Shown here: one piece after another, positions 12,051 to 61,993 of the stretch | How positions within the stretch are numbered: position 1 is the first letter of the stretch | Layout of the letters: each line of letters starts with the position of its first letter | Assembly (NCBI GenBank): GCA_964017235.1 | Contig: OZ024936.1 | Location: forward strand, 35,734,040-35,798,039 | From: Sabellastarte sp. h YS-2021 | Taxonomy: Eukaryota; Annelida; Polychaeta; Sabellida; Sabellidae | Length of the DNA: 64,000 nucleotides | Direction of reading: 5' to 3' | Notes under the pieces: generated by a model | What the model saw: the letters and a program-made list of their open reading frames with translations, nothing else | The model's database searches: none | Told to the model about the DNA's origin: nothing | Program-made: the position numbers and the translations under genes

Positions 12051-12179
12051 TTAAGACGAGCAATCAGTGACAAGCAATCAGTGACCATGAACAGGCTGTG
12101 TCAGATGACTTTGTGTTTTGAGCTTCAGAGCACAAGTGACAGTAAAGTAAAGGATTAAAAATAGCAATGACTAATTTGA

Positions 12180-29485: not shown

Positions 29486-29559
29486 GTTGTCTCACTTAGA
29501 TATAATGAAGTAAATAAATTTGGGAGTCTTTTATAGGCTCTCATTTGGTAAGCCATTGT

Positions 29560-30324: not shown

Positions 30325-31345
30325 ATATCCCCAGACGAAAGTCGGGGATATATTGGATTCAGGTCCGTCGCGCCGCCGCCGCCGCCGCCGCCGCCGTAGA
30401 AATTTCCTTGTGGACGCGATAACTCAAAAACAAATTAATATTTTTTTTTCAAACTTGGTACACATGTTAAGGGTGCCCAAAGGAAGATCCCTATTTTAAG
30501 GTGACCTTAAACTCCCAGTAAAAAAGAACTTATGGCCACCTTAAGGTCAGAAATTGCACTTTTGGCCACTTAGAGCCCTGTAGGTCACAAACTATGATGC
30601 TCAGCTGGCTGAAATTTTACCTGACAACACATTAATATGTTCTTAGTACATGTGCCGAAAATCATGACTTTAAGTTGAGGAGAAAATTGTGTTTGAGGCC
30701 CATAAATACCCCCACTTAGGGATTTTTTGCTATACTTTTCACATATTTTGCCCTATAATTTGGAAGTGATAATTCTGATGAGTCTCAAACTGCGCTAGGT
30801 ATAACTTTGATATGTAATCCTTGTCTGTAGAAAATTTTAGGGCTGTAGGTTTACCCAAAGGGGTCGACTTAAGGTCTCAAAAGTGCCCACAGAGACCCAA
30901 TTTATGCACTTTTTGTCACTTTCAAGCACTGTAGCTTTCAAACTATGTCTCTCATCTAAGTTAAATATCATCTGGGAATATATCTATGTGTTTTCTTATA
31001 TGTGCCCCAACATTTAGGCCTTTAATAGACAGTTAACCTGTGTATCAGGACCATAAACACCCACCCGAGTGACCCTTATAAGACATTTTTCACATCTTTT
31101 TCCCTGTAACTTGGAAATGGTAAGTCTGAGAAGTTTCAAACTGTATTAGATATATATTCTGTGTGTAATCTTAGTATGTAACAGATTTTAAGTCTGAAGC
31201 TTTAATTTTGAAGGTCAAATTGAGGTCTCTAAAAGGCTCCCAAAGACCCAATATTTGGACTTTTTGCTACTTTTAAGCCCTGTGACTGTCAAACTATGTG
31301 ACTGATAGAGCTCAAATCCTATCTGAGAAGATATTAGATGTTATT

Positions 31346-34300
31346 ATGTCCACCCCCCTGGGGGGTGGATATATTATTTTTGCTTTTTTCGCCGTCCGAT
31401 GTCCGGCGTCCGATGTCCGGCGTCACGCATGGTTTCCGCTCATTTAAAGGAAAAGTATTAGAGCTATTGTCACCAAATTTGGTATGCAGGCTTATTGGGT
31501 CAGTAGCTTGCTTGGGATTGCTTTTGGCTGTTGTACCTCTTTTGCTTACTGAGTAATACTTAAGTACAGCTATTTTCAGTACCCATTGGTTTCCGTGCAT
31601 TTAAGCCAAAATAATTAAAGATATTTTACTACAATTTTGAATACAAGATTGTTATGTCCATAGCTCGCTTGGTATTGCATTTGGGACTGATAGCTTTGTC
31701 AGTACATGAGTAATAGCCATTTAGGTACTTCATTGTGTATTTTCAGTACTACTTTTGAGTAATTTGCTAATATCTCAGAAACCGTGTGAGATAGAGCGAT
31801 TTCGTCGAAATTTTCGACCCACAGGGTATTTAAGGAATGTAATATTTGCAATTTTCAAAAAATTTTCCCCTCCCCAAAAATGGCGGCCATTTTGAATTTT
31901 CGAATTTTTGCCAAAAATGGCAAAACACAAATTTGCTTCTATCTCCTTAACCGTGCGAGATAGAGCGATTTCGTCGAAATTTTCGACCCACAGGGTATCT
32001 AAGGAATGCAATCTTTGCAATTTTCAAAAAAATTTTCCCCTCCCCAAAAATGGCGGCCATTTTGAATTTTCGAATTTTTGCCAAAAATGGCAAAACACCA
32101 ATCTGCTTCTATCTCCTTAACCGTGCGAGATAGAGCGATTTCGTCAAAATTTTCGACCCACAGGGTATCTGAGCATTGTACTCTTGGTAATTTTAAAAAA
32201 ATTTTCCCCTCCCCAAAAATGGCGGCCATTTTGAATTTTCGAATTTTTGCCAAAAATGGCAAAACACAAATTTGCTTCTATCTCCTTAACCGTGCCAGAT
32301 AGAGCGATTTCGTCAAAATTTTCGACCCACAGGGTATCTGAGCATTGTGCTCTTGGTAATTTTTACAAAATTTTCCCCTCCCCAAAAATGGCGGCCATTT
32401 TGAATTTTCGAATTTTTGCCAAAAATGACAAAACACTAATTTGCTTCTATCTCCTTAACCGTGCGAGATAGAGCGATTTCGTCGAAATTTTCGACCCACA
32501 GGGTATCTGAGCATTGTGCTCTTGGTAATTTTCCAAAAATTTTCCCCTCCCCAAAAATGGCGGCCATTTTGAATTTTCGAATTTTTGCCAAAAATGGCAA
32601 AACACTAATTTGCTTCTATCTCCTTAACCGTGCGAGATAGAGCGATTTCGTCGAAATTTTCGACCCACAGGGTATCTAAGGAATGCAATCTTTGCAATTT
32701 TCCAAAAATTTTCCCCTCCCCAAAAATGGCGGCCATTTTGAATTTTCGAATTTTTGCCAAAAATGGCAAAACACAAATTTCCTTCTATCTCCTTAACCGT
32801 GCCAGATAGAGCGATTTCGTCAAAATTTTCGACCCACAGGGTATCTGAGCATTGTACTCTTGGTAATTTAAAAAAAATTTTCCCCTCCCCAAAAATGGCG
32901 GCCATTTTGAATTTTTGAATTTTTGCCAAAAATGGCAAAACACAAATTTGCTTCTATCTCCTTAACCGTGCCAGATAGAGCGATTTCGTCAAAATTTTCG
33001 ACCCACAGGGTATCTAAGGAATGCAATCTTTGCAATTTTCCAAAAATTTTCCCCTCCCCAAAAATGGCGGCCATTTTGAATTTTCGAATTTTTGCCAAAA
33101 ATGGCAAAACACAAATTTCCTCCTATCTCCTTAACCGTGCCAGATAGACCGATTTCGTCAAAATTTTCGACCCACAGGGTATCTGAGCATTGTACTCTTT
33201 GCAATTTTCCAAAAATTTTCCCCTCCCCAAAAATGGCGGCCATTTTGAATTTTCGAATTTTTGCCAAAAATGGCAAAACACTAATTTGCTTCTATCTCCT
33301 TAACCGTGCGAGATAGAGCGATTTCGTCGAAATTTTCGACCCACAGGGTAACTAAGGAATGCAATCTTTGCAATTTTCCAAAAATTTTCCCCTCCCCAAA
33401 AAATGGCGGCCATTTTGAATTTTCGAATTTTTGCCAAAAATGGCAAAACACAAATTTCCTTCTATCTCCTTAACCGTGCCAGATAGAGCGATTTCGTCAA
33501 AATTTTCGACCCACAGGGTATCTGAGCATTGTACTCTTGGCAATTTTTTAAAAAATTTCCCCTCCCCAAATATGGCGGCCATTTTGAATTTTCGAATTTT
33601 TGCCAAAAATGGCAAAACACTAATTTGCTTCTATCTCCTTAACCGTGCGAGATAGAGTGATTTCGTCGAAATTTTCGACCCACAGGGTATCTAAGGAATG
33701 CAATCTTTGCAATTTTCCAAAAATTTTCCCCTCCCCAAAAATGGCGGCCATTTTGAATTTTCGAATTTTTGCCAAAAATGGCAAAACACCAATCTGCTTC
33801 TATCTCCTTAACCGTGCGAGATAGAGCGATTTCGTCAAAATTTTCGACCCACAGGGCATCTGAGCATTGTACTCTTGGTAATTTTTAAAAAATTTTCCCC
33901 TCCCCAAAAATGGCGGCCATTTTGAATTTTCGAATTTTTGCCAAAAATGGCAAAACACAAATTTCCTCCTATCTCCTTAACCGTGCCAGATAGAGCGATT
34001 TCGTCAAAATTTTCGACCCACAGGGTATCTGAACATTGTGCTCTTGGTAATTTTTACAAAATTTTCCCCTCCCCAAAAATGGCGGCCATTTTGAATTTTC
34101 GAATTTTTGCCAAAAATGACAAAACACTAATTTGCTTCTATCTCCTTAACCGTGCGAGATAGAGCGATTTCGTCGAAATTTTCGACCCACAGGGTATCTG
34201 AGCATTGTGCTCTTGGTAATTTTCCAAAAATTTTCCCCTCCCCAAAAATGGCGGCCATTTTGAATTTTCGAATTTTTGCCAAAAATGGCAAAACACTAAT

Positions 34301-36258
34301 TTGCTTCTATCTCCTTAACCGTGCGAGATAGAGCGATTTCGTCGAAATTTTCGACCCACAGGGTATCTAAGGAATGCAATCTTTGCAATTTTCCAAAAAT
34401 TTTCCCCTCCCCAAAAATGGCGGCCATTTTGAATTTTCGAATTTTTGCCAAAAATGGCAAAACACAAATTTGCTTCTATCTCCTTAACCGTGCCAGATAG
34501 AGCGATTTCGTCAAAATTTTCGACTCACAGGGTATCTGAGCATTGTACTCTTGGTAATTTAAAAAAAATTTTCCCCTCCCCAAAAATGGCGGCCATTTTG
34601 AATTTTCGAATTTTTGCCAAAAATGGCAAAACACAAATTTCCTCCTATCTCCTTAACCGTGCCAGATAGAGCGATTTCGTCAAAATTTTCGACCCACAGG
34701 GTATCTGAGCATTGTACTCTTGGTAATTTTTAAAAAATTTTCCCCTCCCCAAAAATGGCGGCCATTTGAATTTTCGAATTGTTGCCAAAAATGGCAAAAC
34801 ACTAATTTGCTTCTATCTCCTTAACCGTGCGAGATAGAGTGATTTCGTCGAAATTTTCGACCCACAGGGTATCTAAGGAATGCAATCTTTGCAATTTTCA
34901 AAAAATTTTCCCCTCCCCAAAATTGGCGGCCATTTTGAATTTTCGAATTTTTGCCAAAAATGGTAAAACACAAATTTGCTTCTATCTCCTTAACCGTGCG
35001 AGATAGAGCGATTTCGTCGAAATTTTCGACCCACAGGGTATCTAAGGAATGCAATCTTTGCAATTTTCCAACAAATTTTCCCCTCCCCAAAAATGGCAGC
35101 CATTTTGAATTTTCGAATTTTTGCCAAAAATGGCAAAACACAAATTTGCTTCTATCTCCTTAACCGTGCGAGATAGAGCGATTTCGTCGAAATTATCGAC
35201 CCACAGGGTATTTAAGGAATGCAATCTTTGCAATTTTCCAAAAAATTTTCCCCTCCCCAAAAATGGCAGCCATTTTGAATTTTCGAATTTTTGCCAAAAC
35301 TGGCAAAACACAAATTTGCTTCTATCTCCTTAACCGTGCGAGATAGAGCGATTTCGTCGAAATTTTCGACGCACAGGGTATCGAAGAAATGCAATCTTTG
35401 CAATTTTCCGAAAAATTTTCCCCTCCCCAAAAATGGCGGCCATTTTGAATTTTCGAATTTTTGCCAAAAATGGCAAAACACAAATTTGCTTCTATCTCCT
35501 TAACCGTGCGAGATAGATCGATTTCATCAAAATTTTCGACCCACAGGTATTTCAGCATTGTATTCTTGGCAATTTAAAAAAAAATTTCCCGTCCCCTAAA
35601 ATGGCGGCCATTTTGAATTTTCAAATTTTTGTCAAAAATGGCAAAACACAAATTTGCTTCTATCTCCTTAACCATGCGAGATAGAGCGATTTCGTCGAAA
35701 TTTTCAACCCACAGGGTATCTAAGGAATGTAATCTTTGCAATTTTCAAAAAATTTTCCCCTCCCCAAAAATGGCAGCCATTTTGAATTTTCGAATTTTTG
35801 CCCAAAATGGAAAAACACAAACTGGCCTTAACCGTGCAAAATAGAGTTATTTCGTTGAAATTTTCGACCCATAGGGTATCTAAAAAATGTACTCTTGGCA
35901 ATTTTCAAAAAAATTTCCTTTTCCCAAAAATGGCGGCCATTTTGAATTTTCAAATTTTTGCCAAAAATAGAAAAACAGGAATTTGCTTCTATCTTCTTAA
36001 CCGTGCCAGATAGAGTGATTTCGTCAAAATTTTCAACCCAACCAATGCAAAAAGGCATGAAGCTGAAATAATTTACATCTACACTAACAAATATTTAAGC
36101 GTCATTGATATATTTTACAAATGAAACAGGGTCTTGTAAGACTACTGTACAATTTGGGCAAAAGGTTCATGGGTGGACATTACACATGATAATGTGTGTT
36201 CTTCTATGCTATCCTGTTTCTATTCGCATCTACTATCAACAGGGCGGCCGATTTCTAG
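31346..36258 (+). mobile_element. Element E2, copy A, nested in E1A
   Basis: 5' hairpin ATGTCCACCCCCC / GGGGGGTGGATAT (31346-31372); GTCCGATGTCCGGCGTC repeats follow. The core is the 169 bp array. The inverted 5' arm GGGTGGACAT is at 36171-36180, the 3' stem-loop ACACAT-GATA-ATGTGT at 36182-36197, the end TCTAG at 36254-36258, then TT. E1B at 57985 shows the empty site: host GTTATT joins TTTATATG there, so insertion was at TT with no longer duplication. Confidence 0.88.
31760..36030 (+). repeat. 169 bp tandem array of E2A (about 25 units)
   Basis: Each unit has CTATCTCCTTAACCGTGCGA, GATAGAGCGATTTCGTC, TTTTCGACCCACAGGGTATC and the palindrome AAAATGGCGGCCATTTT. Two unit types differ after the GGGTATCT: AAGGAATGCAATCTTTGC or GAGCATTGTACTCTTGGTA. 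ORFs of 70-106 codons on both strands are by-products of the 169 bp period, not genes. Confidence 0.97.
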
Positions 36259-39200
36259 TTTTTATATGTGCCAAAAATTAAGGCTTTAAGAAGACATTTA
36301 ACCTGTGTATGAGGACCATAAATCCCCACCCGAGTGACCATTTTTAGACATTTTTCACATATTTTTCCCTGTAACTTGGAAATGGTAAGTCTAAGAAGTT
36401 TCAAACTGTATTAGATGCATATTCTATGTGTAATCTTAGTATGTGACAAATTTTAAGTTTGAAGCTTTAATTTGAAGGCCACATTTAGGTCTCTAGAAGG
36501 CCCCATAAAGACCCAGTATTTGGACTTTTTGCCAATTTTAAGGCCTGTGACTGTTAAACTATGTGACTGATAGAGCTGAAATCTCATCTGGGAATACATT
36601 GTTATGTTCTTTTTACATGTGCCAAAAATCAAGGCTTCAAGTAGACATTTAACCTGTGTATGAGGACCTTAAACACCCACCTGAGTGACCCTTTTAAGAC
36701 ATTTTTCACATATTTTGCTCTGTAACTTGGAAGTGGTAAGTCTGAGAAGTTTCAAACTTTATTAGATACATATTCTATGTGTAATCTTAGTATGTAACAA
36801 ATTTTAAGTCTGAAGCTTTAATTTGAAAGCCACATCGAGATCTCTAAAAGGCCCACAGAGACCCAATATTTGGACTTTTTACCACCTTTAAGCCCTGTAA
36901 CTGTTAAACTATGTGATTGATGGAGCTGAAATCCCATCTGGGAATGCATTATTATGTCCTTTTTACATATGCCGAAAATCAAGGTTTTTAGTAGACATTT
37001 AACCTGTGTATGAGGGCCATAGACACTCGCCCAAGTGCCTTTTTTGACATTTTTTCCGTATTTTGCCCTGTTATTTGGAAATGCTTAGTGTGACAAGTCT
37101 TAAACTGTATTATATATAATTTTTGTTTGTTATGTATGTCCCCCAAAAAGTTTCAGATCTGTAGTTTAATTGCTAAGGTCTCTTTAACAATTGTAAAATG
37201 CCCACAGAAACCCAATTTATGGATATTATGCCACTTTAAAGCCCAGTAACTGTCAAACTATGTGGGTTATAGAGCTGAAATCTTTGAATTTTTAAAAGGA
37301 AATGCCTGTCTATTTAAATTTTGAATATTAATAATGTTATGGCTATCTTAGTCTTTTAAGAACTTATTTTTGTGTGTTATACCTCTGCTTGCTGAGTTTT
37401 TCACTTTTTAAAATGAAACTGGTTAAACATATTCAAGTAGACAAAATGGACACTTTAAGTGAGCTTTAAGTCCCAATATTAATGAAATTATATCCTTATG
37501 TAGTAAAACTAGGGGATTTTTAACCCTCAACTAGCCCAGTTTTATTCAACTTGCCTCAGTTAATTTTGGCACAGCTCCTACAGTTATGAACTCATTTCAG
37601 TTGATAATCACATACTTAAAATTCTCAATTCTTTTTGTATTTGAGTACCCCTTTTATATAGATTGTTTGTTTACCATTTATGCTCAACCCACATCCCCCA
37701 CCCGGATTACCCCCACCCACCTCTGGGACCTCCAGCTATATTGAGTGACACTAAATAAACAAAGGTATTTAATGATATCAGATGAGAAACAAAGAACTCA
37801 ATGGGGTTGCAGATCTTGTGTAATAGTGAGAGAGGTGTGGAGAAGGGGAGAGGGGTGGGGGTGGGAGGTGGTGGGCTTCATTACATATAACACAAAGGGG
37901 AGTCAGAACTGAGATTGTGTCACATATTTAGGTTGCATATATATGGACCACATATATAGGTATAGAGGAAATGAATAACTGAAAACAATTTGCAAATTCT
38001 AAAAATAATATAATAAAATAATAATATAAATAATTTTTTTTTAAATAATATTTTATTTGTGAACAAATATAGAAACAGATATGCGCTTTTGGGATTATGA
38101 ATTTTAGAATGGACATTGAATCATCAATCATTTAAATATTTTGAAGGAAGATTGAAAAATATGATGAGTTGAGTTAAAAATAATATTTTATTTGTCAACA
38201 AATATAGAAACAGATATGCTCTTTTGGGATTATTATTTTAGAATGGACATTCAATCATCAATCATTTAAATACTTTGAAAATAGGTTTAGAGTTATCATT
38301 GCAGGAAGATTGAAAATATAATTTGAGTTATGTATTCGGCGTCTGGGGATACACCATCTTCCTTGGGGAGATATAAACAGAGTAGATTGATGTGCTGAAG
38401 TTCATATAATAATGGGTAATTATGTTTTAAAAAATTCCCGATCAAAACCTGTGGCGTGAGTGATGACCTGTCTGGGGATATGTTGGCGCCGAGTTGGCCC
38501 AATCTAGTTATTTATTATAATTGTATTTTTATGCTTCATTATTGTGTTTATTTAATGTGATTTGCAAACAAACACCATAAATCAAAGACATAAGACTCTT
38601 TTTCGGTCCATGGTAAGTATTTTATTATAATAAATTTTATTTATTTTAAATAATGTATATAGTGAGATAATAGGTACATAAATAAATGTAATAACAAAGT
38701 CTATTTATTACAGATTGTTCAAATTTATTTGGTATTAAAATTTGGTTGTCCTGTAGCTCCATGCTCCATTTGGCGGTGGAGGAGGTAGGATAATCTTTCT
38801 GGGTGATGTCACAAGGGTGGGTCTAGTGGGTACCCTTGAACATATGGCCTCATAGGCTGTATTGTCTATGGTTAGGGCCGATGGTTTCTTTAGGTGAGGG
38901 TTGAGGTTCTGCTGTGGTTTGCTGGTAACCTTTATTTCAGTTTTGGTGAATGCTGGGCTGTTTTTGTGCCTTGGAAATTCCTTGGGGCTTTTTGGTTTAG
39001 TTTCCCCTTGTAATCTAGACTTCCATTTTTTATAGGCCGAAGTGTTGGGGAGGGGCATTTTGTGTCTGTCCTCCCTGGAGGTGATGGGTTCTTCATGTTC
39101 TGGCAAGGTGCTTATTTCAGCATCCTTGATGATGTAGGCCTGTCTTTCTAAAATTAAATGTTCTTGATAGGTACATTTTCGGCATGTGATGTCTTCAGTT

Positions 39201-39639
39201 TGGGTACCCCCATTTTTATGTAGTGTGAGTGGTACACATCCTATCTGGCTAGTTGGCTTGGGGTTAATTTTTATGTCAGCTGACTTGTCAGTCAGCTGAC
39301 ATTATGTCGTCACTCTGCGGCGTGGGCGTGGCGTCCGCGTGAACAACTTCTCCTCCAAAACTACAAGGCCTAGAGACGTGCTGTTTTTTTTAAAAGATAC
39401 CTTATCTATCGAGGATGAAAAATTGTTCAAGGCATGCAAATCTGTCTGTTCGTCTGTTTGCTAGAGACATTACAAGGAGGGTACCCCCACCAAAAGTGTG
39501 AAAATTTCAACACTTAATCACAATTTTCTCAGTGACTATTGCAGGGATTTCTCTCATATCTTGCATATATGTACTAGGCCACAGGTAGATTCTCTTGTGT
39601 GAGTATGAGACCTGGATCTGTCTTACTTTTTTTTTAATA

Positions 39640-42600
39640 AATTTTTTTAATAATTTTTAATGCATTAAAATTCATGAAATCATGCACAAAATCATTTATA
39701 ACTTGAAAAGTGTTGCATTTAGAGCATTTTGTTAAAATATGTTATTCAGCTACTTTTTTCATAGCTACAATATGGTGAGTAAGTTGGGTGCCTGTCTCAA
39801 TAGCTAAGTGAGTAATAGCTACTTTTGGGCTTTTCAGTAAGTTCCATCATGAGTAAAATCACTTGTAACTTAAAAACTATTGCATTTAGAGAATTTCGTA
39901 TAAATATGTTATTCAGCTACTTTTGGGTCAGCTATAACATAGTAAAATTTTAGACCTGTAGCTCATGGCATAGCTGAGTAATAGCTACTTTTAGGTTATC
40001 ACTGTTGAGTAAATCGCTTATAACTTCAAAACTATTGCATTTAGAGAATTTCGTATAAATATGTTATTCAGCTACTTTTGGGTCAGCTATAACATAGTAA
40101 AATTTCAGATCTGTAGCTCATGGCATAGCTGAGTAATAGCTACTTTTAGGTTATCACTGTTGAGTAAATCGCTTATAACTTGGAAACTATTGCATTTACA
40201 GTATTTTGTTTCAATATGTTATTCACCTATTTTGGGATCAGCTATAACATAGTGAAGTTTCAGATCTGTGGCTCATTGCATAGCTGAGTAATAGCTACTT
40301 TGAAGTTCTCACTATTGAGTAAATCACTTGTAACTTAAAACCTATTGCATTTAGAGAATTTCGTATAAATATGTTATTCAGCTACTTTTGGGTCAGCTAT
40401 AAGCTATAACATAGTGAAATTTCAGATCTGTAGGTCATGGCATAGCTGAGTAATAGCTACTTTAAAGTTCTCACTATTGAGTAAATCAGTTGTAATTGGA
40501 AAACTATTGCATTTAGAGTATTTCGTATAAATATGTTATTCAGCTACTTTTGGGTCAGCTATAACATAGTAAAATTTCAGACCTGTAGCTCATGGCATAG
40601 CTGAGTAATAGCTACTTTTAGGTCATCACTATTGAGTAAATCAGTTGTAACTTCAAAACTATTGCATTTACAGTATTTTGCTTAAATATGTTGTTCACCT
40701 ACTTTTGGGTCAGCTATAACATAGTAAAATTTCAGACCTGTAGCTCATTGCATAGCTGAGTAATAACTACTTTGAGGTTCTCACTATTGAGTAAATCAGT
40801 TGTAATTGCAAAACTATTGCATTTAGAGAATTTCGTATAAATATGTTATTGAGCTACTTTTGGGCCAGCTATAACATAGTGAAATTTCAGATCTGTAGGT
40901 CATGGCACAGCTGAGTAATAGCTACTTTGAAGTTCTCACTATTGAGTAAATCAGTTGTAATTGGAAAACTATTGCATTTACAGAATTTCGTATAAATATG
41001 TTATTCAGCTACTTTTGGGTCAGCTATAACATAGTAAAATTTCAGACCTGTAGCTCATGGCATAGCTGAGTAATAGCTACTTTTAGGTCATCACTATTGA
41101 GTAAATCAGTTGTAACTTCAAAACTATTGCATTTACAGTATTTTGCTTAAATATGTTGTTCACCTACTTTTGGGTCAGCTATAACATAGTAAAATTTCAG
41201 ACCTGTAGCTCATTGCATAGCTGAGTAATAACTACTTTGAGGTTCTCACTATTGAGTAAATCAGTTGTAATTGCAAAACTATTGCATTTAGAGAATTTAA
41301 TATAAATATGTTATTCAGCTACTTTTGGGTCAGCTATAACATAGTAAAATTTCAGACCTGTAGCTCATGGCATAGCTGAGTAATAGCTACTTTTAGGTCA
41401 TCACTATTGAGTAAATCAGTTGTAACTTGAAAACTATTGCATGTACAGTATTTTGCTTAAATATGTTGTTCACCTACTTTTGGGTCAGCTATAACATAGT
41501 AAAATTTCAGACCTGTAGCTCATGGCATAGCTGAGTGATAGCTACTTTGAGGTTATCACTGTTGAGTAAATCGCTTATAACTTGGAAATTATTGCATTTA
41601 GAGTATTTTGTTTCAATATGTTATTCACCTATTTTGGGGTCAGCTATAACATAGTGAAGTTCCAGACCTGTGACTCATTGCATAGCTGAGTAATAGCTAC
41701 TTTGAAGTTCTCAATGTTGAGCAAATCACTTATATTTTGAAAACTATTGCATTTAGAGAATTTAGTGTAAATATGTTATTCAGCTACTTTTGGGTCAGCT
41801 ATAACATAGTAAAATTTCAGACCTGTAGCTCATGGCATAGCTGAGTAATAGCTACTTTTAGGTTATCACTGTTGAGTAAATCACTTATAACTTGGAAACT
41901 ATTGCATTTAGAGTATTTTGTTGCAATATGTTATTCACCTATTTTGGGGTCAGCTATAACATAGTGAAGTTCCAGACCTGTGGCTCATTGCATAGCTGAG
42001 TAATAGCTACTTTGAAGTTCTCACTGTTGAGTAAATCAGTTGTAATTGGAAAACTATTGCCTTTACAGAAATTTGTGCAAATATGTTATTCAGCTACTTT
42101 TGGGTCAGCTATAACATAGTGAAATTACAGACCTGTAGCTCATGGCACAACTGAGCAATAGCTATTCTCAGGCACTGACTGTTGAGTAAATCGGCTATAA
42201 CTTGAAAAATATTGCATTTGGAGTATTTTGTTAAAATATATTGTTCACCTACTTTTGGGTTAGCTATAACATAGTGAAATTACAGACCTATAGCTCATGG
42301 CATAGCGGAGCAATAGCTATTTTCAGGTTCTCACTATTGAGTAAATCAGTTGTAACTTGAAAACTATTGCATTTACAGTATTTTGCTTAAATATGTTGTT
42401 CACCTACTTTTAGGTCAGCTATAACAGAGCAAAAATTCAGACATGTAGCTCATTGCATAGCTGAGTAATAGTTACTTTGAGGTTCTCACTCTTGAGTAAA
42501 TCAGTAGTAACTTGAAAACTATTACATTTAGAGTATTTTGTTAAATATGTTTTTCACAGACGTTTTGGTCAGCTATAACATAGTGAAATTGCAGACCTCT

Positions 42601-42660
42601 ATGTCATGGCATAGCTGAGCAATAGCTTCTTTCAGGTTCTCACTGTTGAGTAAATCATTG
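39640..42660 (+). repeat. ~155 bp tandem array of element X (about 19 units)
   Basis: Units contain AACTATTGCATTTAGAGAAT, TATGTTATTCAGCTACTTTT, GGTCAGCTATAACATAGT and GCATAGCTGAGTAATAGCTA. Part is organised in trimers: the three-unit block 40480-40944 is repeated at 40945-41410. Confidence 0.95.
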
Positions 42661-43077
42661 TATCCAACCTGTAGGAAATCATGGGCTGGGAATCTGTTAA
42701 TATGGTCCGATTTGACCTTGGAACCCTCCTTCAAGGTCAAATGAGGATAGCCAAACATAAAAGTGCTTATAACTCGCTTATTATTGGTCCTAGAGGTTTG
42801 GAATGAAAACCAACCTATAGAAAATCATGAGCTGGGAATTTTTTGGTGTGGTCGGATTTCACCTTGGACCCCTCCTTCAAGGTCAAATGAGGATAGCCAA
42901 ACTTAAAAGTGCTTATAACTCGCTTATTATTGGTCCTAGAGGTTTGGAATGGAAAACCAACCTATAGAAAATCATGGGCTGGGAATCTTTTGGTGTGGTC
43001 AGATTTCACCTTAGACCCCTCCTTCCAGGTCAAACGAAGATAGCCAAACTTAAAGTGCTTATAACTCGCGTATTATT
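42660..43077 (+). repeat. ~140 bp satellite of element X, left part
   Basis: Three units with AAATCATGGGCTGGGAATCT, GGTCAGATTTGACCTTGGAC, CTCCTTCAAGGTCAAA and ATAACTCGCTTATTATTGGTCC. It is cut at TTATT by E3 and resumes at 48843 with GGTC. Confidence 0.9.
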
Positions 43078-43121
43078 AAGCGTCCCGCAAGGGACGCTTG
43101 TTTGTGTATGGGAGAGCTTCA

Positions 43122-43168
43122 GGCTCCGCCGGCTCCGGCGGCTCCGCCGGCTCCGCCGGCTCCGCATT
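43122..43168 (+). repeat. GC-rich microsatellite (GGCTCCGCC)n
   Basis: About five 9 bp units just inside the E3 5' hairpin. E1 has a (GCC)n run in the equivalent position. Confidence 0.9.
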
Positions 43169-43489
43169 TTGTTTTCCTTATAACTCTGTAACCGTTAGGC
43201 GGATTCTTTTCAAATTTGGCAGGTTTAGGCAGTAGCCTTGGGGAATTTTTTTGAATATGCTGCAGTGACATTTCAACCAATCAGAGAGGTCACATGACCA
43301 AAAATGTCTTTTTTCGGTGGGGAAGCTTGTCCGGATGATAACTTGAAAGGAATTTTATCAATTCACCTGAAACTTGGCAAATACATTCATTCTATTAAAA
43401 TCTGGAAATCATTAGATTTTGGCATTGATTGGTCAAGAAATGGCCGAGTAATTAATGATTAATTAATCATTACGAATTTTCCAAATAAG

Positions 43490-44590
43490 GAAAACACAAA
43501 AATGTTTATATCTCGAAAACCGTGCTAGATAGAGCGATTTCGGCGAAATTTTTGACCCGCAGGGTATCTCTGCGGAGTAGTTTTCCCAATTTTCAAAAAA
43601 TTTTTGTCTCGCCCAAAATGGCGGCCATTTTGAATTTTCGAAATTTTCGCAAAAATTGCAAAAGACAAAAATGCTTATATCTCAAAAACCGTGCTAGATA
43701 GAGCAATTTCGACAAAATTTTTGACCCGCAGGATATCTCTGCGGAGTACTTTTCCCAATTTTCAAAAAATTTTGGTCTCGCCAAAAATGGCGGCCATTTT
43801 GAATTTTCGAAATTTTCGCAAAAATTGCAAAACACAAAAATGCTTATATCTCGAAAACCCTGCTAGATAGAGCGATTTCGACGAAATTTTTGACCCAAAG
43901 GGTATCTCTGCAGGGTAGTTATCCCAATTTTGAAAAAAATTTTGTCTCGCCAAAAATGGCGGCCATTTTGAATTTTCGAATTTTTCGCAAAAATTGCAAA
44001 ACACAAAAATGCTTATATCTCGAAAACCGTGCTAGATAGAGCGATTTCGACGAAATTTTTGACCCAAAGGGTATCTCTGCAGAGTAGCCATGCCAATTTT
44101 GAAAAAAATTTTGTCTCGCCAAAAATGGCGGCCATTTTGAATTTTCGAATTTTTCGCAAAAATTGCAAAACATAAAAATGCTTATATCTCGAAAACCGTG
44201 CTAGATAGAGCGATTTCGACGAAATTTTTGACCCACAGGGTATCTCTGCAGAGTAGCCATGCCAATTTTCAAAAAAATTTTGTCTCGCCAAAAATGGCGG
44301 CCATTTTGAATTTTCGAATTTTTCGCAAAATTGCAAAACACAAAAATGCTTATATCTCGAAAACCGTGCTAGATAGAGCGATTTCGACGAAATTTTTGAC
44401 CCACAGGGTATCTCTGCAGAGTAGCCATGCCAATTTTCAAAAGAATTTTATCTTGCCAAAAATGGCGGCCATTTTGAATTTTCGAATTTTTGCGCAAAAA
44501 TTGCAAAACACAAAAATGCTAATATTTCGAAAACCATGCTACATAGAGCGATTTCGACGAAATTTTTTATCTTCAGGGTATCTCTGCAGA
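43490..44590 (+). repeat. ~170 bp tandem array of E3 (six to seven units)
   Basis: Units carry TATATCTCGAAAACCGTGCT, AGATAGAGCGATTTCGACGA and AAAATGGCGGCCATTTTG. Clearly homologous to the 169 bp array of E2A but a different subfamily (GCTAGATAGAGCG, CTCTGCAGAGTAG). Confidence 0.95.
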
Positions 44591-47500
44591 GCAGCTATCC
44601 CAAAGAGCTTTCACTTGGTGAAGTTTCAGACCTATAGCTAATTACTCACCTACTCAAAATGAGTAAATGCGAATTATCTCTAAAAGTATTGCAGATAGCC
44701 AATTTTTCTCAAATAACTCATTCACCTACTTTTGGGAGAGCTTTCACTCTGTGAAGTTTCAGACCCATAGCTAATTACTCACCTACTCAAAATGAGTAAA
44801 TGCGAATTATCTCTAAAAGTATTGCAGATAGCCAATTTTTCTCAAATAACTCATTCACCTACTTTTGGCAGAGCTTTCACTTGGTGAAGTTTCAGACCCA
44901 TAGCTAATTACTCACCTACTGAAAATGAGTAAATGCGAATTATCTCTAAAAGTATTGCAGATAGCCAATTTTTCTCAAATTAATCATTCACCTACTTTTG
45001 GGAGAGCTTTCACTCTGTGAAGTTTCAGACCCATAGCTAATTACTCACCTACTCAAAATGAGTAAATGCGAATTATCTCTAAAAGTATTGCAGATAGCCA
45101 ATTTTTCTCAAATTAATCATTCACCTACTTTTGGGAGAGCTTTCACTTGATGAAGTTTCAGACCCATAGCTAATTACTCACCTACTCAAAATGAGTAAAT
45201 GCGAATTATCTCTAAAAGTATTGCAGATAGCCAATTTTTCTCAAATAACTCATTCACCTACTTTTGGGAGAGCTTTCACTTGGTGAAGTTTCGGACCCAT
45301 AGCTAATTACTCACCTACTCAAAATGAGTAAATGCGAATTATCTCTAAAAGTATTGCAGATAGCCAATTTTTCTCAAATTAATCATTCACCTACTTTTGG
45401 GAGAGCTTTCACTTGGTGAAGTTTCAGACCCATAGCTAAATACTCACCTACTCAAAATGAGTAAATGCGAATTATCTCTAAAAGTATTGCAGATAGCCAA
45501 TTTTTCTCAAATAACTCATTCACCTACTTTTGGGAGAGCTTTCACTCTGTGAAGTTTCAGACCCATAGCTAATTACTCACCTACTGAAAATGAGTAAATG
45601 CGAATTATCTCTAAAAGTATTGCAGATAGCCAATTTTTCTCAAATAACTCATTCACCTACTTTTGTGAGAGCTTTCACTTGGTGAAGTTTCAGACCCATA
45701 GCTAATTACTCACCTACTCAAAATGAGTAAATGCGAATTATCTCTAAAAGTATTGCAGATAGCCAATTTTTCTCAAATAACTCATTCACCTACTTTTGGG
45801 AGAGCTTTCACTCTGTGAAGTTTCAGACCCATAGCTAATTACTCACCTACTCAAAATGAGTAAATGCGAATTATCTCTAAAAGTATTGCAGATAGCCAAT
45901 TTTTCTCAAATAACTCATTCACCTACTTTTGGCAGAGCTTTCACTTGGTGAAGTTTCAGACCCATAGCTAATTACTCACCTACTGAAAATGAGTAAATGC
46001 GAATTATCTCTAAAAGTATTGCAGATAGCCAATTTTTCTCAAATTAATCATTCACCTACTTTTGGGAGAGCTTTCACTCTGTGAAGTTTCAGACCCATAG
46101 CTAATTACTCACCTACTCAAAATGAGTAAATGCGAATTATCTCTAAAAGTATTGCAGATAGCCAATTTTTCTCAAATTAATCATTCACCTACTTTTGGGA
46201 GAGCTTTCACTTGGTGAAGTTTCAGACCCATAGCTAATTACTCACCTACTCAAAATGAGTAAATGCGAATTATCTCTAAAAGTATTGCAGATAGCCAATT
46301 TTTCTCAAATAACTCATTCACCTACTTTTGGGAGAGCTTTCACTTGGTGAAGTTTCGGACCCATAGCTAATTACTCACCTACTCAAAATGAGTAAATGCG
46401 AATTATCTCTAAAAGTATTGCAGATAGCCAATTTTTCTCAAATTAATCATTCACCTACTTTTGGGAGAGCTTTCACTTGGTGAAGTTTCAGACCCATAGC
46501 TAATTACTCACCTACTCAAAATGAGTAAATGCGAATTATCTCTAAAAGTATTGCAGATAGCCAATTTTTCTCAAATAACTCATTCACCTACTTTTGGGAG
46601 AGCTTTCACTCTGTGAAGTTTCAGACCCATAGCTAATTACTCACCTACTGAAAATGAGTAAATGCGAATTATCTCTAAAAGTATTGCAGATAGCCAATTT
46701 TTCTCAAATAACTCATTCACCTACTTTTGTGAGAGCTTTCACTTGGTGAAGTTTCAGACCCATAGCTAATTACTCACCTACTCAAAATGAGTAAATGCGA
46801 ATTATCTCTAAAAGTATTGCAGATAGCCAATTTTTCTCAAATTAATCATTCACCTACTTTTGGGAGAGCTTTCACTTGGTGAAGTTTCAGACCCATAGCT
46901 AATTACTCACCTACTGAAAATGAGTAAATGCGAATTATCTCTAAAAGTATTGCAGATAGCCAATTTTTCTCAAATAACTCATTCACCTACTTTTGTGAGA
47001 GCTTTCACTTGGTGAAGTTTCAGACCCATAGCTAATTACTCACCTACTCAAAATGAGTAAATGCGAATTATCTCTAAAAGTATTGCAGATAGCCAATTTT
47101 TCTCAAATTAATCATTCACCTACTTTTGGGAGAGCTTTCACTTGGTGAAGTTTCAGACCCATAGCTAATTACTCACCTACTCAAAATGAGTAAATGCGAA
47201 TTATCTCTAAAAGTATTGCAGATAGCCAATTTTTCTCAAATTAATCATTCACCTACTTTTGGGAGAGCTTTCACTTGGTGAAGTTTCAGACCCATAGCTA
47301 ATTACTCACCTACTCAAAATGAGTAAATGCGAATTATCTCTAAAAGTATTGCAGATAGCCAATTTTTCTCAAATAACTCATTCACCTACTTTTGGGAGAG
47401 CTTTCACTTGTTGAAGTTTCAGACCCATAGCTAATTACTCACCTACTGAAAATGAGTAAATGTGAATTATCTCTAAAAGTATTGCAGATAGCCAATTTTT

Positions 47501-48340
47501 CTCAAATAACTCATTCACCTACTTTTGGGAGAGCTTTCACTTGGTGAAGTTTCAGACCCATAGCTAATTACTCACCTACTCAAAATGAGTAAATGCGAAT
47601 TATCTCTAAAAGTATTGCAGATAGCCAATTTTTCTCAAATTAATCATTCACCTACTTTTGGGAGAGCTTTCACTTGGTGAAGTTTCAGACCCATAGCTAA
47701 TTACTCACCTACTCAAAATGACTAAATGCGAATTATCTCTAAAAGTATTGCAGATAGCCAATTTTTCTCAAATAACTCATTCACCTACTTTTGGGAGAGC
47801 TTTCACTTGGTGAAGTTTCAGACCCATAGCTAATTACTCACCTACTCAAAATGAGTAAATGCGAATTATCTCTAAAAGTATTGCAGATAGCCAATTTTTC
47901 TCAAATTAATCATTTACCTACTTCTGGGAGAGCTTTCACTTGGTGAAGTTTCAGACCCATAGCTAATTACTCACCTACTGAAAATGAGTAAATGCGAATT
48001 ATCTCTAAAAGTATTGCAGATAGCCAATTTTTCTCAAATAACTCATTCACCTACTTTTGGGAGAGCTTTCACTTGGTGAAGTTTCAGACCCATAGCTAAT
48101 TACTCACCTACTCAAAATGAGTAAATGCGAATTATCTCTAAAAGTATTGCAGATACCCAATTTTTCTCAAATAACTCATTCACCTACTTTTGGGAGAGCT
48201 TTCACTTGGTGAAGTTTCAGACCCATAGCTAATTATTCACCTCAAAATGAGTAAATGTGAATTATCTCTTAATAGTATTGCAGATAGCCAATTTTTCTCA
48301 AATAACTCATTCACCTACTTTTGGCAGAGCTTTCACACAC
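44590..48340 (+). repeat. 133 bp tandem array of E3 (about 28 units) with higher-order structure
   Basis: Units: GAGCTTTCACTTGGTGAAGT, TTCAGACCCATAGCTAATTA, CTCACCTACTCAAAATGAGT, AAATGCGAATTATCTCTAAA, AGTATTGCAGATAGCCAATT. Very low divergence. Diagnostic variants recur every 1063-1064 bp (eight units): GGCAGAG at 44868 and 45931, TTCGGACCC at 45290 and 46354, TTTTGTGAGAG at 45661 and 46725. Confidence 0.97.
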
Positions 48341-48700
48341 GAAAATGAAAAATTGTGAATATCTCGGAAAAGCTATTTCTTTTGCTTTAATGCTCGGCGG
48401 GAGATACATACCGCGGCAGTGGTTTTGACAAAAATTTTGGTCTCCCCAAAAATGGTGGCCATTTTGAATTTTCAAAGTTTTTGCAAAACACAAAAATGCT
48501 TATATCTCGAGAACCGTGCTATATGGAGCGAACTCAACAAAATTTTAGACCTGCTGGGTATCTCTGCAGAGTAGCCATGCCAATTTTCAAAATATTTTTG
48601 TCTCGCCAAATATAGCGGACATTTTTAATTTTTTTATTTTTTGCAAAACACAAAAATGCTTATATCTTGAAAACCGTGCTAGATAGAGCAGACTGCGCTT
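48335..48700 (-). repeat. Inverted E4 5' end plus extra 170 bp-type units inside E3
   Basis: The minus strand at 48335-48440 reads CCACTGCCGCGGTATGTATC, TCCCGCCGAGCATTAAAG and TTTTCCGAGATATTCAC as at the E4 start (14941-15010). Two degenerate 170 bp-type units follow (48440-48700). Confidence 0.75.
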
Positions 48701-48842
48701 ACTTTGGTTGCCACAACAGTATAAGGCTAGAAACGAAGCATTTTCTTAATACTTTAGCACTCACCTTTATATCCTTTTCGGGACGCTTTGTTTTTGCTAT
48801 GCAAAAACATTATCTTTTTTTTTTGCGAGCGATCCTCTAGTT

Positions 48843-49270
48843 GGTCTTGGAGGTTCGGGATGGTAAACCAACATATAGGAAATCATGGGCTGGGATTCTT
48901 TTGGTGTGGTCAGATTTGACCTGGGACCCCTCCTTCAAGGTCAATTGAGGATAGCCAAACTTACAATTGCTTAGAACTCGCTTATTATTGGTCCTACAGG
49001 TTTGGGATGGTAAACAAGCTACAGGAAATCATGGGCTGGGAATTTTTTTGTGTGGTCGGATTTGACCTTAGACCCCTCCGTCAAGGTCAAACAAGGATAG
49101 CCAAACTTAAAAAGTGCCTATGACTCACTTATTATTGGTCCGAGAGGTTTGGGATGGTAAACCATCCTAAATTCTTTGGCTGGGAATCTTTTGGTATGGT
49201 CAGATTTGACCTTTGGACCCCTTCTTCATGGTCGAACGAGGATATTGCATTTATAGTATTTCTTTAAATA
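48843..49270 (+). repeat. ~140 bp satellite of element X, right part
   Basis: Continues the array broken at 43077; three units, then the unique 3' end of X (49270-49525). Confidence 0.85.
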
Positions 49271-50498
49271 TTTTTAACCTACTTTTTACACTTAAACAAT
49301 TACCTTGTTACTTTATTTCATAATACCATTTGCAGGGCACAACTTTTTTGTCCTTTTTTTCTGTCAGCTTCGGAATATCTTTCGAACATGCTGTTCAGTT
49401 ACCATTTACTGTATTTCTGTACAGCCCTTTCCCTGATAATTATGCTTTCCTCTCATTATCACCATCACAAATCAAAAACATTCAGTCAGCTGACACAGTG
49501 CCCGTTCACGGGCACTCTCCTCTTGTTAGATAGGTTCTGGCTTCATCAGATAGCCCATGTGTAGTGAGTAGTTCCTTGTGGTATGGACCCATGTTTAGTA
49601 GACCCAATGGGGAGGTGTTCACCGCACTATCTGTGTCAGGGTTGATTTGTTTGTCTGTAGTGGTTGCAATGGAGACTTTTGTGGTAGGTTGTTCATCATC
49701 ACTAAGGGTCAGGTCCTCTTTAATGAGTGAGAGCCAGTCAGTGGTGCCATTGCACACAGAAGTGGTTTGCTCAATGTTGTGTGAGGTATTGATTCTAGTG
49801 CTAGTGGTGTCATTGGTGATAGAAGTGGTTTGCTCAATGTGGCGCGAGGTATTGGGTACACAGACTGGTGTGGGGTGTAGGTTAATATTCTCTTCTGATT
49901 GCTTTAATATCAATGGCTGGTGATATTTTGTAGTATGTTTGATAAAATCAGATCTTCTAACATAGGATTTATTACAACTACTGCAGATGTATCTGCGGTT
50001 GTTGTGGCAGCTGTTGATATGCCTTTGTAAGCTAGATCTGTTCTTATAGGCATTATTACATTCACCACACTTGTATTTAAGATTATCCATGATTATATGT
50101 GATTTTTGTTTTTCAAATATTCACTATTCCAACTTTCTCTATCTTAGTGATGAATTAGTGATGTCATCAAGTTGTTATAGTGAAAAGTGGTTGTGACGTA
50201 ATTATGGTGCTTACGTAATCGTAAGAATGGTGATTATGTCATAATTCATTGTAAATATTGAATAATTTATGATTTTATTCAATATTATGAGAATTAAAAA
50301 TATATTTAATAATTTGAATAAATCTTTCTCTGATTAAATGAAAAAACTTTATTCTGAAGAATAAATTATCTCGGTATGCGATAATTATCGTGAATATTAT
50401 AAATATCTCATTTTAATACTTAATATGTATTAAATAATTTATTCAACTCAGTGTGTTTTCAGGTTTATTTCCTGGTGATATGTAATGGCTATACAAGA

Positions 50499-56628: not shown

Positions 56629-59600
56629 TTTATGTCAGCTGACTTGGCAGTCAGCTGACATTATGGCATCACTCTGCGAACAACTCCTCCTCCAAAACCA
56701 CAAGACCCAGAGACATGCTGTTACCTTTAAAAGACACCTTATCTATCGAGGATGATAAATCGTAAAATTCATGCAGATCAGTCTGTTTGCTAGAGCCATT
56801 AGAAGAGAGGTACCCCCACCCAAAGTATGAAAATTTCAACACTATCACAATTTTCTCATTGACTATTGCAGAGATCTCTCTCTTATCTTGCATATATGTA
56901 CTAGGCCATAAATAAATTCCCTTGTGTGAGTATCAGTCCTTTATCTTTCCTAATTTTTTTTATGAATTTTTTTAATAATTATATCCCCAGACGAAAGTCG
57001 GGGATATATTGGATTCAGGTCCGTCGCGCCGCCGCCGCCGCCGTAGAAATTTCCTTGTGGACGCGATAACTCAAAAACAAATTAATATTTTTTTTTCAAA
57101 CTTGGTACACATGTTAAGGGTGCCCAAATGAAGATCCCTATTTTAAGGTGACCTTAAACTCCCAGTAAAAAAGAACTTATGGCCACCTTAAGGTCAGAAA
57201 TTGGACTTTTGGCCACTTAGAGCCCTGTAGGTCACAAACTATGATGCTCAGCTGGCTGAAATTTTACCTGACAACACATTAATATGTTCTTAGTACATGT
57301 GCCGAAAATCATGACTTTAAGTTGAGGAGAAAATTGTGTTTGAGGCCCATAAATACCCCCACTTAGGGATTTTTTGCTATACTTTACACATATTTTGCCC
57401 TATAATTTGGAAGTGATAATTCTGATGAGTCTCAAACTGCGCTAGGTATAACTTTGATATGTAATCCTTGTCTGTAGAAAATTTTAGAGCTGTAGGTTTA
57501 CCCAAAGGGGTCGACTTAAGGTCTCAAAAGTGCCCACAGAGACCCAATTTATGCACTTTTTGCCACTTTCAAGCACTGTAGCTTTCAAACTATGTCTCTC
57601 ATCTAAGTTAAATATCATCTGGGAATATATCTATGTGTTTTCTTATATGTGCCCCAACATTTAGGCCTTTAATAGACAGTTAACCTGTGTATCAGGACCA
57701 TAAACACCCACCCGAGTGACCCTTATAAGACATTTTTCACATCTTTTTCCCTGTAACTTGGAAATGGTAAGTCTGAGAAGTTTCAAACTGTATTAGATAT
57801 ATATTCTGTGTGTAATCTTAGTATGTAACAGATTTTAAGTCTGAAGCTTTAATTTTGAAGGTCAAATTGAGGTCTCTAAAAGGCTCCCAAAGACCCAATA
57901 TTTGGACTTTTTGCTACTTTTAAGCCCTGTGACTGTCAAACTATGTGACTGATAGAGCTCAAATCCTATCTGAGAAGATATTAGTATGTTATTTTTATAT
58001 GTGCCAAAAATTAAGGCTTTAAGAAGACATTTAACCTGTGTATGAGGACCATAAATCCCCACCCGAGTGACCATTTTTAGACATTTTTCACATATTTTTC
58101 CCTGTAACTTGGAAATGGTAAGTGTAAGAAGTTTCAAACTGTATTAGATGCATATTCTATGTGTAATCTTAGTATGTGACAAATTTTAAGTCTGAAGCTT
58201 TAATTTGAAGGCCACATTTAGGTCTCTAGAAGGCCCCATAAAGACCCAGTATTTGGACTTTTTGCCAATTTTAAGGCCTGTGACTGTTAAACTATGTGAC
58301 TGATAGAGCTGAAATCTCATCTGGGAATACATTATTATGTTCTTTTTACATGTGCCAAAAATCAAGGCTTCAAGTAGACATTTAACCTGTGTATGAGGAC
58401 CTTAAACACCCACCTGAGTGACCCTTTTAAGACATTTTTCACATATTTTGCTCTGTAACTTGGAAATGGTAAGTCTGAGAAGTTTCAAACTTTATTAGAT
58501 ACATATTCTATGTGTAATCTTAGTATGTAACAAATTTTAAGTCTGAAGCTTTAATTTGAAAGCCACATCGAGATCTCTAAAAGGCCCACAGAGACCCAAT
58601 ATTTGGACTTTTTACCACCTTTAAGCCCTGTAACTGTTAAACTATGTGATTGATGGAGCTGAAATCCCATCTGGGAATGCATTATTATGTCCTTTTTACA
58701 TATGCCGAAAATCAAGGTTTTTAGTAGACATTTAACCTGTGTATGAGGGCCATAGACACTCGCCCAAGTGCCTTTTTTGACATTTTTTCCGTATTTTGCC
58801 CTGTTATTTGGAAATGCTTAGTGTGACAAGTCTTAAACTGTATTATATATAATTTTTGTTTGTTATGTATGTCCCCCAAAAAGTTTCAGATCTGTAGTTT
58901 AATTGCTAAGGTCTCTTTAACAATTGTAAAATGCCCACAGAAACCCAATTTATGGATATTATGCCACTTTAAAGCCCAGTAACTGTCAAACTATGTGGGT
59001 TATAGAGCTGAAATCTTTGAATTTTAAAAAGGAAATGCCTGTCTATTTAAATTTTGAATATTAATAATGTTATGGCTATCTTAGTCTTTTAAGAACTTAT
59101 TTTTGTGTGTTATACCTCTGCTTGCTGAGTTTTACACTTTTTAAAATGAAACTGGTTAAACATATTCAAGTAGACAAAATGGACGCTTTAAGTGAGCTTT
59201 AAGTCCCAATATTAATGAAATTATATCCTTATGTAGTAAAACTAGGGGATTTTTAACCCTCAACTAGCCCAGTTTTATTCAACTTGCCTCAGTTAATTTT
59301 GGCACAGCTCCTACAGTTATGAACTCATTTCAGTTGATAATCCATACTTAAAATTCTCAATTCTTTTTGTATTTGAGTACCCCTTTTATATAGATTGTTT
59401 GTTTACCATTTATGCTCAACCCACATCCCCCACCCGGATTCCCCCCACCCACCTCTGGGACCTCCAGCTATATTGAGTGACACTAAATAAACAAAGGTAT
59501 TTAATGATATCAGATGAGAAACAAAGAACTCAATGGGGTTGCAGATCTTGTGTAATAGTGAGAGAGGTGTGGAGAAGGGGAGAGGGGTGGGGGTGGGAGG

Positions 59601-61677: not shown

Positions 61678-61993
61678 ATGTCCACCCCCCTGGGGGGTGG
61701 ATATATTATTTTTGCTTTTTTCGCCGTCCGATGTCCGATGTCCGGCGTCCGATGTCCGGCGTCACGCATGGTTTCCGCTCATTTAAAGGAAAAGTATTAG
61801 AGCTATTGTCACCAAATTTGGTATGCAGGCTTATTGGGTCAGTAGCTTGCTTGGGATTGCTTTTGGTCTATCTCCTTAACCATGCGAGATAGAGCGATTT
61901 CGTCGAAATTTTCAACCCACAGGGTATCTAAGGAATGTAATCTTTGCAATTTTCAAAAAAATTTCCCCTCCCCAAAAATGGCAGCCATTTCGA
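61678..61993 (+). mobile_element. Element E2, copy B (internally deleted, 3' cut by a LINE)
   Basis: Same 5' hairpin and first ~180 bp as E2A (31346-31527), then directly joined to the array unit corresponding to 35659-35790, identified by its private variants CTTAACCATGCGAG and TTTTCAACCC. Broken at 61994 by the poly(A) end of the LINE. Confidence 0.85.

Follow-up and report, generated by a model that had tools for sequence, protein, structure and literature searches.

The satellite-carrying elements of the window, the whole stretch of 64,000 nucleotides that was analysed, are almost certainly families of HINEs, which are non-autonomous Helentrons (the Helitron2 group of rolling-circle transposons). 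We base this assignment of the five families E1, E2, E3, X and E4 on their ends, their TT target, their insertion-free sites and on coding Helentrons of the same genome with 3' ends matching a nearby HINE. The families display exact ends, a T-rich target gaining one extra TT, a 5' terminal hairpin, a 3' subterminal repeat complementary to the 5' arm, a 3' stem-loop and a satellite core. A preliminary description of the sequence had delimited E1, E2, E3 and X and proposed that they fit Helentrons and HINEs. Both proposals are borne out, the first by copies and insertion-free sites, the second by the evidence just named. The elements are nested, with E2 residing within E1 and with E1 and E3 each residing within copies of X. 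Their features are as follows, where 264 kb denotes the window together with 200 kb of surrounding sequence.

30325..38507, + strand: E1 copy A, whole; 3.27 kb of own sequence, split by E2; ends common to three more copies in 264 kb
30325..30352, + strand: E1 5' terminal hairpin, GAAA loop, one bulged A; identical in 4/4 copies
30371..30396, + strand: E1 GC-rich microsatellite, downstream of the hairpin
38470..38481, + strand: E1 3' subterminal inverted repeat GTCTGGGGATAT, complementary to the 5' arm over 12 nt
38483..38502, + strand: E1 3' stem-loop, one bulge; end CTAG of E1-A at 38507
56981..60238, + strand: E1 copy B, lacking E2; located within X copy B
1..2057, + strand: E1 copy C, 3' part, carrying a 443-bp insert; 5' end outside the window, 1.7 kb to its left
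31346..36258, + strand: E2 copy A, inserted in E1-A; insertion-free counterpart is E1-B
31346..31372, + strand: E2 5' terminal hairpin
31393..31424, + strand: E2 microsatellite, GTCC-type 14-bp unit
31761..36040, + strand: E2 satellite array, about 25 copies of a 169-bp unit
36171..36180, + strand: E2 3' subterminal inverted repeat GGGTGGACAT
36182..36197, + strand: E2 3' stem-loop; end CTAG of E2-A at 36258
61678..61998, + strand: E2 copy B, 5' part only
39273..49525, + strand: X copy A, whole, containing E3; about 4.5 kb of own sequence; used in the host-frame test
39273..39302, + strand: X 5' terminal hairpin
39850..42662, + strand: X 155-bp satellite array
42664..43077, resuming 48851-49244, + strand: X 146-bp units, target of E3
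49484..49495, + strand: X 3' subterminal inverted repeat AGTCAGCTGACA
49497..49516, + strand: X 3' stem-loop; end CTCTTG of X-A at 49525
56632..56661, + strand: 5' hairpin of X copy B, for which a 3' end was not found
43078..48840, + strand: E3 copy A, interrupting a 146-bp unit of X-A
43078..43099, + strand: E3 5' terminal hairpin, GCAA loop
43122..43165, + strand: E3 GC-rich microsatellite (GGCTCCGCC)n
43491..48336, + strand: E3 satellite arrays, 169-bp (43491-44603), then 133-bp (44604-48336)
48343..48427, + strand: E4-type 3' tail buried in E3
48779..48788, + strand: E3 3' subterminal inverted repeat CGGGACGCTT
48789..48809, + strand: E3 3' stem-loop; end CTAG of E3-A at 48840
14936..16318, - strand: E4, fifth family on the same plan; TT, ATCTCCCGCC hairpin ... 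GGCGGGAGAT ... CTTG, TT

The terminal plan is shared by all five families. Each carries a hairpin at its 5' end and a 3' repeat forming a 9-12 nt Watson-Crick complement of the 5' arm (5/5 families), which is located 22 nt from the element end in E4, 26 nt in E1, 30 nt in X, 52 nt in E3 and 78 nt in E2. The 3' stem-loop is clear in E1, E2, E3 and X and weak in E4. In the preliminary description, the hairpins of the first four families had been called perfect; all four are present, although this attribute applies to E3 and X only, because a bulged A is present in the E1 stem (ATATCCCC-A-GAC GAAA GTC-GGGGATAT) and a G.T wobble in that of E2. The proposed inverted returns (at 38470, 36171, 48779 and 49484) and 3' stem-loops (at 38483, 36182, 48789 and 49497) were all recovered within two bases of their initial assignment. 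E1, E2 and E3 have CTAG ends, while the end of X, initially read as TTG, is corrected to CTTG, which it has in common with E4. Satellite arrays, suspected to form the core, were mapped in E2 (169-bp), E3 (169- and 133-bp) and X (155- and 146-bp). The claim that stems co-vary between elements holds loosely but not strictly, since the families are not alignable. A search pattern for the plan, consisting of TT, a stem of 9 bp or with 12/13 pairs, a 9-nt inverted return within 12 kb and CTAGTT within 115 nt, identified four loci in the window (E1-A, E2-A, E3 and E1-B) compared to seven in total in 199 dinucleotide shuffles in 1-kb blocks; X is excluded from this search because it ends in CTTG, whereas the pattern requires CTAGTT. 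Genome-wide, the E3 hairpin has 9,583 matches at up to two mismatches, and the copy number of E3 is very high.

The definition of the ends was examined on multiple copies in the 264 kb, where 22 5' ends and 30 3' ends were listed. The copies break mostly at the same bases, with TT directly preceding the A of the hairpin in 19/22 5' ends (the other three being decayed or devoid of a hairpin) and TT directly following CTAG or CTTG in 23/30 3' ends. The remaining seven 3' ends comprise four E4 tails buried inside E3 and three deviant cases (CTAG followed by GT, CTTG followed by TA and one that is unclear). Beyond the end points, the flanks of the copies diverge. The TT noted at both junctions is manifested in a comparison of occupied sites, which are flanked by TT on each side, with insertion-free sites, which contain a single TT. 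At the insertion site of E2, the junction is identical to E1-B, with one base being different a few bases upstream. For E3, TATTATTGGTC is found in 4/4 sister 146-bp units, with small differences further out. The site of E1-B corresponds to the same T-run site in X-A, where the run is one T longer in one of the two and several differences are found in the flanks; the X copies are 80% alike. In X-A, the open frame of the host is kept only with 2, 5 or 8 A (1-9 tried), and 5 A is the number predicted from removing one TT. As found here, Helentrons and HINEs are expected to be flanked by two or more T's per side and to lack any longer target duplication. At T-run sites, the extra TT may be a 2-bp target duplication or a TT brought by the element, an ambiguity also left by PMC4067079.

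The genome also contains coding Helentrons. Helitron_like_N was detected in at least 24 places and in none of 14 control genomes. One open frame of 2245 aa combines Helitron_like_N, PIF1 and Exo_endo_phos, latter with a score of 24.2, just under the Pfam cut-off of 24.5, and three more Rep loci show 98.9-99.4% identity to the locus of this frame. Two Helentron copies, H1 and H2, diverge right after CTCTTG. A corresponding HINE, termed H-type, extends from 147375 to 146529 on the minus strand (window coordinates), 83 kb beyond the window. It starts, directly after TTTTT, with a AGGCGGGTTG-CATGTAAC-CAACCCGCCT hairpin followed by a GTCC/GTCT-rich stretch, contains about four tandem units that are 78-85% like 5'-side units of H1, matches the last 186 bp of H1 at 88% and ends in CTCTTG before TT. 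In H1 and H2, CAACCCGCCT is found 25 nt before the end as exact complement of the hairpin arm of the H-type HINE, whose own 3' repeat departs at one position from full complementarity to the 5' arm. The 36-nt tail of H has 2,840 genome matches at up to three mismatches, compared to 0 for the reversed control. As judged from sequence, the Rep-PIF1-endonuclease Helentron is putatively linked to the H-type HINE by the 3' end, the 3' repeat and the 5'-side tandem units.

Of the autonomous partner called for in the preliminary description, a candidate was found for the H-type HINE, by its 3' end and units, but not for E1, E2, E3 or E4. The tail of X resembles that of H, with 1/2000 random genomic 60-mers scoring as high, a likeness suggestive of a possible partnership with the H-type Helentron. 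For E1, E2, E3 and E4, the corresponding numbers out of 2000 are 19, 56, 50 and 36, and the likeness is not clear. Among the 24 Rep places, of which H1 and H2 had their flanks read beyond 1.5 kb, there was no Rep-coding element with termini like those of E1, E2 or E3, and no coding partner was found for E4 either. Within the 264 kb, there was no match to one helicase motif and no Rep or helicase among the 25 longest frames listed. Pfam searches of 10 of the 22 window frames of at least 110 aa detected no Rep and no helicase, and Rfam gave no match within the window at gathering scores. Pattern scans for the 169-bp satellite were negative in both genome_contigs and viral_contigs, as were those for the hairpins of E1 and X in viral_contigs.

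Could the same observations reflect cut-and-paste transposition of MITE-like elements with a TT target duplication? The single extra TT gained on insertion resembles a 2-bp duplication, and bivalve array-carrying pearl elements were initially classed as MITEs (PMC7492417), yet we consider this very improbable, as the 3' inverted repeat is not terminal but 22-78 nt inside, a hairpin forms the 5' end, and a HINE built to this plan has its 3' end and units in common with the coding Helentron. Even less credible is a spread of satellite arrays by recombination, where hairpins would be incidental flanks. Related units of 151-169 bp in E2, E3 and E4 and of 133/155 bp in X, E3 and E4 are in line with such a process, which is contradicted by fixed end bases within unrelated flanks, by the insertion-free sites and by E1, which keeps the plan without matching other cores among the self-comparison matches listed. 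Canonical Helitrons (Helitron1) would agree with the CTAG end and the 3' hairpin (CTRR; features per PMC5148889) but can be dismissed with similar confidence, since the elements lack a 5' TC, insert at TT instead of between A and T and contain a 5' hairpin and ATIR, and the C-terminus of the coding relative is endonuclease-like.

The HINE assignment places the families next to several described systems. Helitron2 was defined by a 5'-terminal hairpin made with the 5' ATIR, with compensatory changes reported (Bao and Jurka 2013, PMC3627910), and shares with our families this hairpin, a subterminal 3' ATIR, a 3' hairpin and insertion after T runs; its 3' ATIR is located about 20-30 bp from the end, which fits E4, E1 and X (22, 26 and 30 nt) but not E3 and E2 (52 and 78 nt). 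Helentrons, HINEs and DINE-1 (Thomas et al. 2014, PMC4067079) are alike in their TT target with at least two T's per side, subTIRs, 3' palindrome, central repeats and a partner with Rep, helicase and endonuclease, and differ in end sequences and core repeats. Oyster HINEs were described to contain a subTIR and complementary IR, microsatellite, satellite array, 3' subTIR and palindrome at an oligo-T target (Vojvoda Zeljko et al. 2020, PMC7492417). Cg_HINE of the Pacific oyster follows this organization, with the complementary IR 1-12 bp away from the 5' subTIR and a satellite-like array, at times of two kinds in succession, where flanks and arrays are combined whether related or unrelated. The likeness of Cg_HINE to E1-E4 and X is judged on plan. 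An autonomous partner was not linkable in that account, whereas a candidate is linked here for the H-type HINE, though not for E1, E2 and E3. FoHeli of Fusarium (PMC5148889) has a 5' hairpin and ATIR, with GAA between the hairpin arms of FoHeli1/2, and differs in its ends and its target (TNAT/T). The suggestion that the perfect 5' hairpin might be little described therefore does not stand, as such hairpins appear in PMC3627910, PMC4067079 and PMC7492417. New are the families of a known transposon type and the genome's Rep-PIF1-endonuclease Helentrons, whose 3' end, 3' repeat and tandem units match the H-type HINE.

For the mobilization of these elements, we envisage that a Helentron Rep protein would nick at the TT adjoining the hairpin and that the strand would be copied by rolling circle through the satellite array. 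Copying would stop once pairing between 3' repeat and 5' arm displaces the hairpin's own second arm, and the freed single strand would then join a TT target, while arrays might grow or shrink via slippage or repeated passage. An exchange between 5' and 3' ATIRs was already proposed in 2013, and their pairing was suggested to open the Helitron2 hairpin (PMC3627910). The longest Watson-Crick run of the 5' arm with the 3' repeat and with its own second arm is 12 and 8 in E1, 10 and 9 in E3, 9 and 6 in E4, 10 and 10 in E2 and 12 and 13 in X. The second arm is thus often the poorer partner, which would give the exchange a single direction as replication ends. By duplex energy, pairing with the 3' repeat is preferred in three of the five families and the hairpin in E2, while the two are nearly equal in X, and this mixed outcome makes the support for a one-way exchange weak; a general rule that the 3' repeat outcompetes the second arm of the hairpin fails, being true in 3/5 families. 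As a speculative and rather doubtful extension, the ends might act as a structure-read switch with a private code for each family, where one Rep class would read shape (T-T, hairpin and exchange partner) and not letters, so that families with unrelated ends could be moved in one genome.

The nested insertions and their insertion-free sites constitute a natural experiment that fixes the ends of satellite-carrying HINE families. They make it testable how rolling-circle transposons spread tandem satellite arrays and whether one protein mobilises families that are alike in structure only.

The preliminary description had proposed that four satellite-carrying elements, E1, E2, E3 and X, share a plan consisting of a 5' terminal hairpin, its inverted return near the 3' end, a 3' stem-loop and a TT target. 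Direct reading of the sequence located every stem at, or within two bases of, the coordinates proposed there, with one A bulged out in the 5' stem of E1 and one G.T pair in that of E2. Comparison of the window (G000:C14:35734040-35798039; genome 1.786 Gb) with itself added further copies.

Copies in the window (where a 3' end is given, the first base is the A of the hairpin directly after TT)
30325-38507, E1-A, 3' end CTAG, then TT
31346-36258, E2-A, 3' end CTAG, then TT
39273-49525, X-A, 3' end CTCTTG, then TT
43078-48840, E3, 3' end CTAG, then TT
56981-60238, E1-B (self-comparison)
1-2057, E1-C, 3' part (self-comparison)
56632, 5' end of X-B (self-comparison)
61678-61998, E2-B (self-comparison)

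A pattern search of the window required TT, a stem of 9 pairs (or 12 of 13), a 9-nt return in inverted orientation no more than 12 kb away, and CTAGTT at a distance of up to 115 nt. Four loci fit this pattern, E1-A, E2-A, E3 and E1-B; 199 shuffles preserving dinucleotides in 1-kb blocks gave 7 matches altogether. X is unable to pass since its 3' end is CTTG. BLAST matches in the window and the surrounding 200 kb served to align the ends of these families and of a fifth, E4, which were judged by eye. TT precedes the hairpin A in 19 of the 22 listed 5' ends, two of which have decayed stems (E3 at -42955, E4 at -26404); the exceptions are an X at 99015 with a replaced left arm, an X at 77858 whose hairpin is gone exactly and one decayed E4. 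On the 3' side, TT follows CTAG or CTTG in 23/30 listed ends, the remaining seven being four E4 tails within E3 and three divergent ends. The X copy at 77858 (locus L003), which occupies a run of T in an array of E3 type, has lost its hairpin by a precise cut between two ATGTC repeats, the outcome expected of slippage past such a structure. Both older E3 copies carry GCGA instead of the GCAA loop, and an E1 copy in L001 (1501-1522) has a short loop, with AGTC replacing the GAC-GAAA-GTC top.

The elements are nested, with E1-A hosting E2, X-B hosting E1-B and X-A hosting E3, and insertion-free sites are available for comparison. E1-A minus E2 and one TT reads GTTATTTTTATATGTGCC, matching the E2-less E1-B, with a single base differing just upstream. 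E3 resides in a 146-bp unit, and taking it out leaves TATTATTGGTC, the same as in four sister units. The site of E1-B without insertion is visible in X-A, with 5 T compared to 6 and flanks differing at several more bases. Finally, the zinc-finger open frame interrupted by X-A is kept by run lengths of 2, 5 and 8 (1-9 tried), and removal of one TT yields 5. Every insertion thus adds one TT, and within T runs a duplication is indistinguishable from a TT owned by the element, a question that PMC4067079 likewise left open.

The two parts of E1-A show 98.5% and 99.4% identity to E1-B. Between X-A and X-B the match is 80% over the first 389 bp, and the remaining X copies in the window and the 200 kb match the X-A 5' end at 88-98%. 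Motif counts give 29 and 17 units of 133 bp in two E3 copies and 17, 6 and 10 units of 155 bp in three X copies. Between its 133-bp array and its last repeats, E3 contains an E4-type 3' tail in 4/4 recent copies (48343-48427 in the window; other copies at -85257, 73456 and 83316), and was therefore probably assembled from the 3' part of another non-autonomous Helentron (HINE).

Other features of the window include a TMEM18-like exon (11679-12150, minus strand) directly after decayed X-type and E4-type 3' tails, an arrangement that probably places HINEs inside the intron of a host gene or its copy. A GIY-YIG frame occurs as head-to-head inverted partial copies (50564-51304, minus; about 51270-51599, plus) adjoining the zinc-finger frame interrupted by X-A. 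A FLYWCH zinc-finger frame (28190-29491, minus) is followed by a second frame without Pfam match, which resembles a MULE-type transposase. A 16-bp minisatellite (GGAAAAAAGGCCTTGT) is found at 27656-27775 and 52189-52314, in inverse orientation and 24 kb apart.

Switching of the 5' arm from its own partner to the 3' repeat, the subterminal sequence complementary to it, was proposed as replication stop signal in PMC3627910. Calculated DNA energies (kcal/mol, own second arm/3' repeat) are -11.3/-14.8 for E1, -15.2/-13.3 for E2, -13.0/-15.1 for E3, -15.9/-15.8 for X and -12.9/-14.0 for E4, the 3' repeat being stronger in three families, tied in one and weaker in one. These values are compatible with such an exchange, while falling short of proof.

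The authors of PMC7492417 state that they were unable to relate an autonomous partner to their array-carrying HINEs, and titles and abstract openings of the papers listed claim none by name for those of molluscs, which does not establish absence in print. In this genome, PF14214 matches at least 24 places, compared to none in 14 control genomes. The match at locus L028 falls inside a 2245-residue open frame with matches to Helitron_like_N, PIF1 and Exo_endo_phos, the last just under its cut-off (24.2 versus 24.5 bits). Loci L025, L027 and L030 share 98.9-99.4% identity with L028. Two copies of this coding Helentron H, H1 and H2, are alike through ...GACCCTCTTG and diverge afterwards (TTCTG versus TATTA). 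Its 36-nt tail occurs 1502+1338 times with up to 3 mismatches (reversed control, 0); compared to 24 Rep places, most tails are probably without the gene. Behind the H1 3' end (L047, about 3591-3640), repeats include a 51-bp stretch 92% like the E1 5' part.

When the last 60 nt were right-anchored to those of H, X scored 15, a value reached by 1 of 2000 random genomic 60-mers, and judged from this likeness X is probably related to H. For E1 (8; 19/2000), E4 (7; 36/2000), E3 (5; 50/2000) and E2 (4; 56/2000) this alignment provides no clear sequence evidence for a tie to H, and their Helentron/HINE membership rests on structure and target.

The following H-related element is located at locus L020, about 83 kb beyond the window:
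147375 to 146529 (window coordinates), minus strand, HINE

Directly after TTTTT it starts with AGGCGGGTTG-CATGTAAC-CAACCCGCCT, followed by a GTCC/GTCT-rich stretch, continues with about four units 78-85% like the 164-bp units on the 5' side of H1 and closes with the last 186 bp of H1 at 88%, ending in CTCTTG before TTTTTTT. The exact complement of its 5' arm, CAACCCGCCT, is present in H1 and H2 25 nt before the end, and its own 3' repeat has one mismatch at this position. Compared with H1 over the 5'-side units and the 3' end, this HINE shows the proposed plan in an element that either derives from a coding Helentron or has a common ancestor with one.
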